From Parvibaculum sp. (lineage in GTDB: Bacteria > Pseudomonadota > Alphaproteobacteria > Parvibaculales > Parvibaculaceae), in NCBI RefSeq assembly GCF_030651915.1, contig NZ_JAUSBV010000010.1, positions 1 through 64,000 of the forward strand: a stretch of 64,000 bases of DNA, given 5' to 3'. The position numbers and the translations under genes were made by a program. The notes beneath the pieces were generated by a model. It saw only the letters and a program-made list of their open reading frames with translations, did not search any database and was not told where the DNA came from. Shown here one piece after another: positions 29,592 to 60,421 of the stretch (positions within the stretch are counted from its first letter, which is position 1; every line of letters starts with the position of its first letter).

Positions 29592-29789
29592 TCACGCCGC
29601 CGGAAACAGATGCCGGTAGGGCGCCGCTTCCTCGAAGACGCGGGCGAAGGAGGGGCGTTTCATCAGCCGGTCGAAATAGACGGCGAGGTTTTTGTATGCG
29701 TCGAAGGGGACAATGCGGTTGGCATAATAAAGCGTCGGCGCGGCGGCGCAGTCGGCCATGCTGAAATCCGTGCCCGCCGCCCACAAGCA
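29592..29789 (-). pseudogene. Glutathione S-transferase remnant (C-terminal part only)
   Basis: Only about 65 codons remain: [20 protein letters not shown], then [18 protein letters not shown] and a C-terminal PYRHLFP, a typical GST C-terminal helical domain. The thioredoxin-like N domain that binds glutathione is missing, and the frame runs straight into the HxlR remnant on the other strand. It cannot encode a working GST. Confidence 0.85.
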
Positions 29790-30075
29790 GAAAGTCATCT
29801 ACAGCCTCACCGAACGGGGCGTCGAGCTCTTGCCGATCCTCGCCGCCATGTCGGCCTGGGGTGTCAAACACATGCCTGTCACCGAGGAACTCGGCATCCG
29901 CGCCAAACTCCTCACCGATGGCGGCCCCAAACTTGTCGCCCGCTTCATGGACGAACTCCGCGCCGAGCATCTCGGCACCGCGAAGAAGGGCAGGCGGGGT
30001 CCCACCGTGCGCGCGGCGTTGCAGGCGGCTTATGAAGCGGTGGTGGCGCGGAAGGGACGGCGCGCGAAGCGCTGA
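29785..30075 (+). pseudogene. HxlR-type regulator remnant (C-terminal part)
   Basis: The reading frame carries [27 protein letters not shown], the wing and C-terminal helix of HxlR-family winged-helix regulators, then a tail (AEHLGTAKKGRRGP) to the stop. The recognition helix and N-terminal half are absent; an ATG at 29758 only adds residues from the opposite GST frame. It faces the GST remnant head to head. Confidence 0.8.
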
Positions 30076-30080
30076 TCATT

Positions 30081-30130
30081 CCCCCGGGGACAAGTTTTTT
30101 CGCCTCGGGAGACAAAAAAACTTATCCCCG
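30081..30130. terminator. Long hairpin between convergent genes
   Basis: CGGGGACAAGTTTTTT (30085-30100) pairs with AAAAAACTTATCCCCG (30115-30130): 15 of 16 positions match, with a 14-nt loop. T-runs and A-runs on the arms make it a bidirectional terminator candidate between the HxlR remnant and lipB. Its arms are also copies of the ACTTrTCCCCG motif seen at 59,094-59,152. Confidence 0.6.
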
Positions 30131-30157
30131 CCCTTTGTCCCTGGCAGCCGGTGCCGG

Positions 30158-30275
30158 CCGGGGATTCGTTGCGGGGGCAATAAAACCGGGGATAAGTTTC
30201 TTCTTCATCCGTACACGGATATTCATTTTCGCGGTTTGTGACAGTTTTATGACTGTTTTGTGACAGAAGGGGGGT
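30158..30275 (-). repeat. Pho-box-like repeat element, copy 1
   Basis: Read on the minus strand: a C-run (30269-30274), then three tandem 11-bp units (30235-30267), CTGTCACAAA, CAGTCATAAA and CTGTCACAAA with one-base linkers, then ACTTATCCCCGG (30186-30197) and ACGAATCCCCGG (30158-30169). The 11-bp TGTCA units match the direct-repeat layout of PhoB boxes. A related element lies at 59,051-59,161, also between convergent genes. I see no gene start directly downstream. Confidence 0.6.
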
Positions 30276-30365: not shown

Positions 30366-31049
30366 TTATTCGCTGTCGCGGTTGAAGACCGTGTCGAAGG
30401 TCGATCGGAGGGCGATGTCGACATCGGCCATCGTCGCTGTCAGGCCGAGATCGGCCAGGCTGGTGACGCCATGTTGTGCGATTCCGCACGGCACGATCCC
30501 CGAAAAATGATCGAGGTCCGGATCGACATTGAGGCTAACCCCATGAAACGTCACCCATTTGCGGATGCGCACGCCGATGGCGGCGATCTTGTCTTCGGCT
30601 GTCAGCCCGCGCTCGGGGCGGCGGACCCAGACGCCGACGCGGTCGGGTCGCGTCTCGCCGGTGACGTTGAACTGTGCCAGCGTGGCGATCAGCCAGGCCT
30701 CGAGGTCCTGCACGAAGGCGCGCACATCGGGCCTGCGCCGCTTCAGGTCGAGCATCACATAGGCGACCCGCTGGCCGGGCCCATGATAGGTGTATTGCCC
30801 GCCGCGTCCGGTCTGGAAGACGGGAAAGCGTTTGGGATCAATGAGATCGGCGGTGTCGGCGCTGGTGCCGGCGGTATAGAGGGCCGGGTGTTCGAGCAGC
30901 CAGACCAGCTCCGGCGCGCTCCCCTCGGCGATCGCCGCCACGCGTGCCTCCATCTCCGCCACCGCCATTTCATAAGGCACCGGCGCATCCGAGACACGCC
31001 ATTCAACGGCGTGGGCCAGCATGTCGGCAAGGGGCAGGGGCTTAACCAT
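30366..31049 (-). CDS. lipB: Octanoyl-[acyl carrier protein] transferase LipB
   Basis: It transfers octanoate from ACP to lipoyl domains, the first step of lipoate synthesis. The 227 residues show [26 protein letters not shown], Lys154 ([12 protein letters not shown]) and the acyl-thioester cysteine Cys188 (FSGIVPCGI). It is transcribed towards the repeat element and divergent from the FliN-like gene. Confidence 0.96.
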
Positions 31050-33017: not shown

Positions 33018-33104
33018 GCGGTCGTGGCGGAATTGGTAGACGCGCAGCGTTGAGGTCGCTGTGGGGTAACTCCCGTGGAAGTTCGAGTCTTCTCGACCGC
33101 ACCA
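33018..33104 (+). tRNA. tRNA-Leu (anticodon GAG)
   Basis: The acceptor arms GCGGTCG (33018-33024) and CGACCGC (33094-33100) pair, and CCA is encoded at 33102-33104. The anticodon stem CAGCG/CGCTG (33045-33049, 33057-33061) frames the loop TTGAGGT with anticodon GAG at 33052-33054, reading CUC and CUU. A long variable arm and GTTCGAGTC T-loop fit a class II tRNA-Leu. No integrase or repeat of the tRNA end is nearby. Confidence 0.97.
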
Positions 33105-58219: not shown

Positions 58220-59047
58220 ATGCGAACGACAAGCTCGAGTTTTGTTGCCGTCCTGCTGTGGACCGTCGCAATGCATTCAACTGCCGCAGCGGTCGAAGCC
58301 GAATTGCAGATGCATCGCGCCGTGTACGAACTGTCGCTGGGGCGATCGCAGGCGGTCAGCGATGTTGCCGGTATTGAAGGGCGGATGGTCGTGGAATGGC
58401 GCGGCGGACGCGAATGCGGCGGCTATACGTCGATGCAGCGGGTCGTGACGCAGGTGACGGGGGACGAGGACAGGGCGGTCAGCAACGATGTCCGGCTGAG
58501 CACCTGGGAGGCGGCGGATGGCGGCGAATTCCGGTTCACGCGGACGGAATATGTAAACGGCCAACTTGTTGAAACTGAAAGCGGAATCGCCCGCCGCGCG
58601 GCGCCGAAGGGCGCGGTGACGGTCGAGCGCGAGGGTCTGCCTCCGATCGAAATACCAGGCGAGGTGCTGTTTCCGGTTGCCTATAATCTGCAGTTGATGG
58701 CAGCGGCGAAGGCCGGCCGGCAGCTCTTCAGCGCCCCGATTTTCGATGGCACCGAGGAGGGCGAGAATCCGACAAATGCCTTTATCGGCAAGACCTTAGC
58801 GATACCGGACGACGCTCTTTCGGCGGCTGTGAGCGGCAGCGTAGCGCCGCTGCTGTCCGAAATGACGGCGCGGCCGGTCAGGCTGAGCTATTTCGACCGC
58901 GACGCGCGCGAGGGCCTGCCCAATTTCGAAATGGGCTATGTCCTTCTATCCAATGGCGTTTCGGCGTCGCTGGTGCTCGACTATGACGATGTGGTGATGA
59001 ACGGACGGCTGAGCGAGGTTCACTATTTCGCAGCAGGCAGTTGCTGA
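58220..59047 (+). CDS. DUF1849 / EipB-type periplasmic protein
   Basis: A protein of 275 residues with a signal peptide (about 1-25) and the DUF1849 pattern: AVYELSLGRSQAVSDVAGIEGRMVVEW, EFRFTRTEYVNGQL, IPGEVLFPVAYNLQLMAAA, FDGTEEGENPTNAFIGK. Brucella EipB folds as a beta-spiral with a disulfide between an early and the last cysteine; here Cys66 (ECGGY) and Cys275 (the final residue) match. The role is in envelope integrity. Confidence 0.9.
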   Translation: MRTTSSSFVAVLLWTVAMHSTAAAVEAELQMHRAVYELSLGRSQAVSDVAGIEGRMVVEWRGGRECGGYTSMQRVVTQVTGDEDRAVSNDVRLSTWEAADGGEFRFTRTEYVNGQLVETESGIARRAAPKGAVTVEREGLPPIEIPGEVLFPVAYNLQLMAAAKAGRQLFSAPIFDGTEEGENPTNAFIGKTLAIPDDALSAAVSGSVAPLLSEMTARPVRLSYFDRDAREGLPNFEMGYVLLSNGVSASLVLDYDDVVMNGRLSEVHYFAAGSC

Positions 59048-59050
59048 AGA

Positions 59051-59152
59051 CCCCCCCTCTGTCACAAATCTGTCAAAAAACTGTCACAAATCGACTTATC
59101 CCCGGCCGGTGCCACGACTTGTCCCCGGGGCGAAGTCCGACTTATCCCCGGG
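59051..59152 (+). repeat. Pho-box-like repeat element, copy 2, with 23-bp iterons
   Basis: After a run of seven C come three tandem 11-bp units at 59059-59091: CTGTCACAAAT, CTGTCAAAAAA, CTGTCACAAAT. Then three copies of GACTTrTCCCCGG begin at 59093, 59116 and 59139, exactly 23 bp apart; the last ends just before the dinB stop at 59153. The 11-bp units look like PhoB boxes. No promoter or coding gene follows on this strand: it runs antisense into dinB. Confidence 0.65.
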
Positions 59153-60421
59153 TCAGCGCGGCAGGCCACGACCCTTGCCGATCGACTTGTCTCCGAATCG
59201 CGCTCTCAGCCGGTCCATCGCGCGTTCGGCGGTGGCGCGCCGCGTCGCCGCCGGGTCGAGCATGTCGGGCGGGTCGGCGAGATCGGCGGGGCCGAGTTGC
59301 GAGATGCCGACGCCGAGCAGGCGGAAGGCGGTGCCGGTCGCTTCCTTCGCCAGCAGGGGGGCGGCGATGCGATAGACCACATCGGCCAGCTGCGTCGGAT
59401 CGTGCAGGGTCTGGTTGCGGGTGCGGGTCTTGAAGTCGGCGGTCTTCAGCTTCAGCACCACGGTCGCGCCGGACAGGCCGGCCGCCTTGGCGCGGCGGGA
59501 GACCTTTTCGCAGAGCGGCCAGAGGATGCGGTCAAGCGCGGCAGCGTCCGAAATATCATCCGTGAACGTCGTTTCGGCCGAAATGCTTTTGGCGCCCTGG
59601 GACGGTTCGACGGTGCGGACATCGAGGCCGCGGGCGAGGCGCCAGAGTCGACTGCCCATCGAGCCGTAACGCGCCATCAACTCGTTTTCCTCCATGCGCT
59701 GGAGCTGCGAAATTCGGGTGATGCCGTCGCGGGCGAGCCTGGCCTCGAAGGCCTTGCCGACGCCCCAGATCAGCGAGACGGGTTTTGCGGCCAGGAAGGC
59801 GAGCGTTTCGGCGCGGCCGATGACCGAGAAGCCGCGCGGCTTGTCGAGGTCGGAGGCGATCTTGGCCAGAAACTTGTTGTGACTGAGGCCGACCGAGACG
59901 GTGATACCGATCTCCTTCTCGATGCGGTTGACGAGGCGGGCCATGCTGAGCGCCGGCGCGCCGTGATGCAGGCGCTCGGTGCCGGACAGGTCGAGAAAGG
60001 CCTCGTCGATCGACAGCGGCTCGACCAGCGGCGTCAATTCCTGCATCAACTGCCGAACCTCGCGGCCGACTTTCGCGTATTTGGCCATGTCGGGCGGCAT
60101 GACGACGGCTTCGGGACAGGCCGCCATGGCCTTGAACATCGGCATGGCCGAGCGGACGCCGCGCACGCGGGCGATGTAGCAGCAGGTCGAGACGACGCCG
60201 CGCTTGCCGCCGCCGATGATCAGCGGCTTGTCGCGCAGGGCGGGGTCGTCGCGCTTTTCGACGGCGGCATAGAAGGCGTCGCAATCGAGATGGGCGATCG
60301 AAAGTTCGTGCAGCTCGGGATGGAATTTCAGGCGCGGCCGCTTGCAGGACGGACAACGCACCGCGCCTTCGGGGGCGGGCGAGAGGCAGTCGCGGCAGAA
60401 GCCTTGCGGGGCGGCGGTCAT
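59153..60421 (-). CDS. dinB: DNA polymerase IV with N-terminal zinc ribbon
   Basis: A Y-family polymerase for translesion synthesis, 422 residues. The catalytic residues are Asp46 and Asp48 ([12 protein letters not shown]) and Asp139-Glu140 (LSIDEAFLD). A CxxC ... CxxC pair (Cys9, Cys12, Cys23, Cys26) before the palm suggests a zinc ribbon common in alphaproteobacterial DinB. The C-terminal little-finger region ([14 protein letters not shown]) is intact; no clear clamp-binding end was sought. The stop lies against the repeat element. Confidence 0.95.

Follow-up and report, generated by a model that had tools for sequence, protein, structure and literature searches.

Two related elements in the window

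Two short sites in a 64-kb stretch of Parvibaculum DNA (hereafter the window, which lies on contig C5 of the 3.5-Mb host genome, G000) carry the same succession of repeats and raise the question of what these elements are and what might read them. Our comparisons suggest that both belong to a single family of putative protein-binding stations spread over the whole chromosome.

Site 1 extends over positions 59051-59151 on the forward strand. The letters of the window give a C-run (59051-59057), then an array (59059-59090) with CTGTCA at 59059, 59070 and 59081 followed by CACAAA, and then the boxes ACTTATCCCCGG (59094-59105), ACTTGTCCCCGG (59117-59128) and again ACTTATCCCCGG (59140-59151), all on the forward strand, where the pattern ACTTRTCCCCGG is found at 59094, 59117 and 59140. 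The site lies between a convergent EipB-like gene (58220-59047, forward; PF08904) and a gene of DNA polymerase IV type (59153-60421, reverse; PF00817 and PF11799), and a degenerate fourth box (59183-59196, forward, 79% to the reference copy) falls within the end of the latter gene. The sister species, G001, has an array at the equivalent locus.

Site 2 (30084-30274) is read on the reverse strand, again with a C-run in the letters of the window (30269-30274) and an array (30235-30266) consisting of CTGTCA (30266-30261), CAGTCA (30255-30250, one mismatch to CTGTCA), CTGTCA (30244-30239) and CAAA. The palindrome TCCGTGTACGGA (30208-30219, reverse) is located 47 bp past the array start and is followed by the boxes ACTTATCCCCGG (30186-30197, reverse), ACTTATCCCC (30120-30129, forward, the strand opposite to the array) and ACTTGTCCCCGG (30084-30095, reverse). 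Two opposed boxes form a hairpin (30085-30130, unstranded) with 22-nt arms that are 86% complementary. The convergent neighbors are an ORF with a partial HxlR-type match (29758-30075, forward; PF01638, profile positions 58-88 of 91) and a gene of lipoyl ligase A/B type (30366-31049, reverse; PF21948).

The order of C-run, three units with an 11-bp period and boxes is the same at both sites, and the original prediction of two related elements built in this way is borne out. It had placed site 2 at 30,158-30,275, and while the order within that interval stands, the end does not, as the box cluster extends past 30,158. In the window we counted nine box matches (3.5 expected, one mismatch permitted) and six two-unit matches (2.5 expected, two mismatches permitted), and this excess over chance, coming from the window alone, is weaker than the genome-wide evidence. 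The predicted RNA of site 1, which is without an inverted repeat, folds no better than its shuffled versions (z = -0.12); the opposed boxes of site 2 give a strong hairpin (z = -2.99 against shuffles). The sole Rfam match in the window is a tRNA gene at 33018-33101.

A dispersed family found in Parvibaculum

The exact pattern of three CTGTCA units with an 11-bp period occurs 73 times in the host genome, and its reversed control once. Permitting up to two mismatches gave 84 matches, which is uninformative with 80 in the reversed control, and the two-unit pattern gave 153, with 65 in the control. The reversed control cannot always count as independent, in our opinion because ACTGTC repeats sit within the same arrays, and the overlap of these repeats with the arrays would explain the high reversed controls in some relatives (26/65 in G013, 25/52 in G022 and 12/60 in G001). 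Our scan of the fetched host loci returned 77 rows. We removed six of them: the pstS array, one row in a second register, two rows for an array of four units next to an RNase E/G-type gene, one array lying at the margins of two coding genes and one additional array 5' of another array. This left 71 family sites.

The array consensus in the host genome is ACCCCCCCT-CTGTCA-CAAAA-CTGTCA-WAAAA-CTGTCA-CAAA, a direct repeat that is not palindromic, and 70 of the 71 family arrays are preceded by five or more consecutive C. The exact pattern ACTTRTCCCCGG was found 53 times (control 0). An array is no more than 300 bp away from 49 of these matches, of which 47 are downstream of it and 41 share its strand. 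Of 70 arrays, 59 have TTRTCCCCG boxes between +28 and +280 and five have one upstream, with the farther flanks almost devoid of them. By raw count, a loosely defined inverted half-site, e.g. GACAGC, stands 5' of the C-run in 64 of 71 arrays. The palindrome TCCGTNNACGGA lies exactly 47 bp past the array start in five host arrays, site 2 included; counted up to 300 bp from the 70 arrays, it occurs 14 times.

Across the order, the general pattern matched in 18 of 40 genomes, every one of them Parvibaculum, with a single match of the reversed control across the 40. Among the 27 Parvibaculum genomes, 14 have at least 16 matches, four have one or two and nine have none. The original prediction had raised the possibility of a dispersed element, and it passed the copy part of its own refutation test, as further copies were indeed found, both in the host genome (71 family arrays) and in its relatives. 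An extension beyond the genus is rejected, since neither pattern occurs in the 13 non-Parvibaculum genomes of the family and the exact triple is absent from 16 genomes of other families. A strict element pattern, which requires the C-run, retrieved 32 stretches from a contig database, all in one Parvibaculum MAG. In the PhoB tree, the 13 array-rich genomes having a PhoB row share one fork of 15 rows (86/87), and the deeper forks are weak. A phage origin was also rejected, as the viral scan gave one AT-rich contig that we judged to be a chance match.

The element is present in the genome G014, taken as P. lavamentivorans DS-1, and its reader and function are therefore directly testable in that strain, a completely sequenced type strain (PMC3368416).

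Gene context

With ORFs called by an in-house caller based on codon usage, 73 of the 77 host rows are intergenic and four overlap a called ORF. The intergenic rows comprise 29 between convergent genes, 18 in the +/+ arrangement, 15 in the -/- arrangement and 11 between divergent genes (-/+). Convergent placement, which had been noted for both sites and holds for these two, is thus the commonest context but no rule for the family. In the sister species, 17 of 55 rows are convergent, compared to 105 of 633 neighboring gene pairs in the sampled stretches. A sense 3'-UTR or terminator element was rejected, because the upstream gene is oppositely directed in 26 of the 73 intergenic rows. Three family arrays are found inside coding genes, for a MutY-type glycosylase (L066), an NTP-transferase fusion (L053) and citrate synthase (L063), and at two further loci (L130 and L049) the array ends 1-13 bp ahead of a called ORF start.

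Conserved loci and genome-specific spelling

To the sister species, which was sampled around exact triple arrays plus eight more stretches, we matched the host loci by 1.4-kb flanks. For 43 of the 77 host rows (41 distinct arrays, 40 of them family) G001 has an array at the same locus and in the same orientation, a share which, given this sampling, is counted over array loci only. The remaining rows comprise one inverted locus, two matched loci without an exact array and 31 without a two-sided match; site 1 has a counterpart and site 2 is among the 31. At the inverted locus (L071, C8:879341 in the host; L193 in G001) the array orientation is opposite in the two species.

The loci are inherited, but the letters follow the genome. 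In 39 ungapped orthologous pairs, for which the identity of the cores is given by construction because G001 was sampled at exact triple arrays, the flanks are 34-49% identical. Identity in spacer 1 is 0.37 between orthologues and 0.36 between non-orthologues, compared to 0.79 within G000 and 0.69 within G001; the corresponding values are 0.74, 0.73, 0.85 and 0.75 for spacer 2, and 0.42, 0.42, 0.91 and 0.37 for the eight bases 5' of the array. Over the 22 non-core positions taken together, the advantage of orthologues over shuffled pairs is slight (0.524 vs 0.511, P = 0.015). The homogeneity within genomes ceases at the array edges, and in the flank from +40 to +80 orthologues are closer (0.46 vs 0.30). 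The arrays thus undergo concerted change and form species dialects.

As read from the listed places only, the dialect of the host genome and the MAG is a C-run with CTGTCAC (31/31 in the MAG, where the arrays were retrieved by that pattern), and that of G001, and mostly of G013, is CTGTCATCGA. For the middle unit, ACGTCA prevails in G017 and G052, and ATGTCA prevails in G005 and G009. Judged by eye, the gain of the C-run left the length unchanged in both mutY and the NTP-transferase gene. The arrays at L066, L053 and L063 obey the genome dialect at the DNA level even within coding sequence. The dialects provide a natural experiment on the joint change of some 70 dispersed sites.

Four host loci have, some 100 bp 5' of the family array, a second array that departs from the host dialect, with two units at C6:102971 (L017), C7:484469 (L026) and C8:21560 (L123) and three units at C4:65912 (L043). 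A comparable array pair occurs at L227 and L212 of G001.

Spacing and orientation

In G000 and G001 the family sites are more evenly spaced than random sets. For 62 intervals on seven host contigs the mean is 47 kb with a coefficient of variation (CV) of 0.54 (random 0.94), and no interval is below 10 kb where 11.8 are expected; for 54 sites in G001 the mean is 66 kb and the CV 0.59 (random 0.98). Among 20,000 random sets, no set reached this evenness in either case. DS-1, from an incomplete list of 37 sites, is near random (CV 0.88).

The parS sites lie near the replication origin, and parS-like sequences served as our guide to the origin, the GC skew being too weak. Clusters of them are found at 2.00 Mb in G001, at C7:219-222 kb in G000 and at 1.40 Mb in DS-1, with single-mismatch matches elsewhere. 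The distance from the cluster to dnaA is about 130-140 kb in G000 and G001 and 1.4 Mb in DS-1. With the terminus set at the contig ends, 41 of 54 arrays in G001 point to parS (P = 1.8 × 10-4), and two alternative guesses for the terminus give 39 and 42 arrays (P = 0.0015 and 5 × 10-5). The shared sites contribute 29 of 40 (P = 0.006) and the rest of G001 12 of 14. For sites found only in the host, placed by their nearest neighbor, 20 of 29 point to parS (P = 0.06). In DS-1 the count is 25 of 37 (P = 0.047), with 17 of 20 for one arm but 8 of 17 for its counterpart; the polarity is incomplete and in DS-1 restricted to one arm. Since G000 and G001 have most loci in common, they are not independent tests of spacing or polarity. 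Gene direction as the cause of the polarity is rejected by the right arm of G001, where 0.54 to 0.62 of the sampled coding bases are directed away from parS and 19 of 25 arrays are directed to it.

Likeness to the Pho box

The dispersed arrays have at least two TGTCA half-sites with an 11-bp period, as Pho boxes do. In G000 and G001 the pstS promoter carries three CTGTC units with this period; a degenerate fourth unit follows them, and CTAGCG stands 49 bp past the array start. The Pho-box-like build that had been proposed for the two sites appears sound, their units matching those upstream of pstS here and in the pstS arrays of the genus. The arrays differ from the pstS promoter in having no -10-like signal, in the C-run (in G000), in the downstream boxes and in their number, with about 70 copies at fixed loci. 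A three-unit array, whose units the dispersed arrays likewise match, also stands 104 bp ahead of the called start of a metallophosphatase gene, with CATATT at +50, and is probably a genuine Pho-type promoter; it lies at L142:1988-2015 (C2:53387 in G000), between that gene and a divergent gene for an OmpR-type response regulator. We infer that CTAGCG at pstS and CATATT at the metallophosphatase gene are -10 elements. TTRTCCCCG boxes are absent from both loci. At the place of these -10 candidates, the 70 dispersed arrays have hexamers like TATAAT or CTAGCG no more often than control stretches, and promoter action of these arrays is unlikely.

We recovered the pstS promoter in 13 of the 21 loci tried (the match in G007 was spurious, and seven gave none). 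Its third unit is CTGTCG in G000 and G001 and CCGTCG in 11 other species, in ten of which the position of CCGTCG in the array agrees, G018 being arranged otherwise. The change from CCGTCG to CTGTCG parallels the shift of the arrays to CTGTCA, and this single event would speak in favor of a shared reader. G011 and DS-1 have retained CCGTCG as the third pstS unit though their arrays hold CTGTCA, and pstS has no counterpart of the middle-unit changes in G017, G052, G005 and G009 or of the C-run in G000.

PhoB itself was found in 24 of the 27 Parvibaculum genomes (at E = 1e-60, 23 genomes gave a single match, one gave two of which the second fell below the cut-off, and three gave none). The stretch VEARTVDVHVGRLR, which we take to be its recognition helix, is identical in all 24 sequences, and PhoB is therefore not the explanation of the dialects; a change in PhoB specificity as their driver is rejected.

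Candidate function and alternatives

We tentatively favor, as a possibility that falls short of probable, the reading of the arrays as vertically inherited, non-promoter stations for a regulator of the PhoB class that serve as chromosomal landmarks. An OmpR/PhoB-class response regulator, most likely PhoB, would bind the three-unit array head to tail; as no -10 element follows the dispersed arrays, this binding would start no transcription. A second factor may bind the TTRTCCCCG boxes. The arrays could then act in nucleoid organization or as distributed holding stations for the regulator, a landmark role suggested by their fixed loci, even spacing and polarity. The dialects may be driven either by co-evolution with a reader or by re-copying from a master sequence. 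A more specific version, a chromosome-wide ruler of about 70 evenly spaced, origin-directed arrays at fixed loci with a reader of the response-regulator type and a dialect in step with it, is in our view doubtful; if true, it would be a new class of chromosome-organizing element made of transcription-factor half-sites.

If bound as we propose, the arrays would link phosphate-type signaling to chromosome layout. In E. coli, transcriptionally inert PhoB sites that are mostly intragenic and not conserved have been described, and tolerated noise has been proposed for the promoterless ones (PMC10294691). The arrays would likewise be PhoB-type sites without promoter work, but they are mostly intergenic and common to two species at 40 loci, and would, unlike those E. 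coli sites, be conserved.

The same landmarks could have a dedicated reader other than PhoB: a relative of the OmpR type, some different protein, or a guide nucleic acid that would read the whole 30-40 bp. The likeness to the Pho box would then reflect common descent or chance, and the dialects co-evolution with that reader. This fits the position-specific, genome-wide dialects without a pstS parallel in G017, G052, G005 and G009, the C-run that precedes nearly every host array (70/71) and is absent at pstS, and orthologous spacers that are no closer than random pairs. It fits less well with units that equal those of the pstS array and with the one parallel shift at pstS; no candidate was found, PhoB being the sole one searched for. 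We consider it unlikely, though the likeliest of the alternatives.

Alternatively, the family could be a short mobile or copied element, similar to REP or MITE sequences, which spread early and had its copies rewritten afterwards from a master copy. The polarity would then stem from single-strand transposition on the lagging strand, and the spacing from immunity or from selection against repeats close to one another. Concerted letters, the orientation bias, arrays within coding genes and opposed boxes able to form hairpins all agree with such an origin. It is nevertheless improbable, as loci are kept across species, the C-run arose in mutY and the NTP-transferase gene at constant length (by eye), homogeneity ends at the array edges and the arrays are non-palindromic.

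The arrays could also be decoys, which by titrating PhoB would fix the threshold of the Pho response. This would account for the lack of a promoter signal in about 70 Pho-type arrays and for their location, which is most often at the end of genes, but here number alone would matter, and number alone requires no fixed loci, even spacing, polarity or boxes, which makes decoys very improbable. Least probable of all are phosphate-induced small or antisense RNAs starting at the arrays, a PhoB-driven form of which had been suggested originally: the half-sites resemble those of pstS and site 2 forms a strong hairpin, but -10-like hexamers are not in excess, Rfam gave no match at either site, the fold of site 1 is not unusual (z = -0.12), some arrays lie in or against coding genes, and the flanks are poorly conserved.

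Comparison with known elements

Our literature search gave nothing recognized as the Parvibaculum array element. DNA uptake sequences, KOPS and Ter sites are dispersed and vary among lineages, and KOPS and Ter sites are polar to replication. The arrays are also dispersed and lineage-variable but have far fewer copies than DNA uptake sequences, a three-unit build, a weak polarity and no known reader. Protein binding is known for some REP/BIME elements, such as the IHF-binding RIBs. The arrays are, with 71 sites and 73 of 77 rows intergenic, dispersed intergenic repeats in the REP/BIME sense. The ChvI motif of Caulobacter, TTGC-N3-GCAA (PMC9731502), is unlike the array. REP/BIME elements, including the CGTC-tagged REPs of alphaproteobacteria, are, like the arrays, dispersed, mostly intergenic and often found between convergent genes (PMC3733652). 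The array differs from these elements in being a direct repeat and not a palindrome, although its boxes are sometimes opposed and capable of forming a hairpin.
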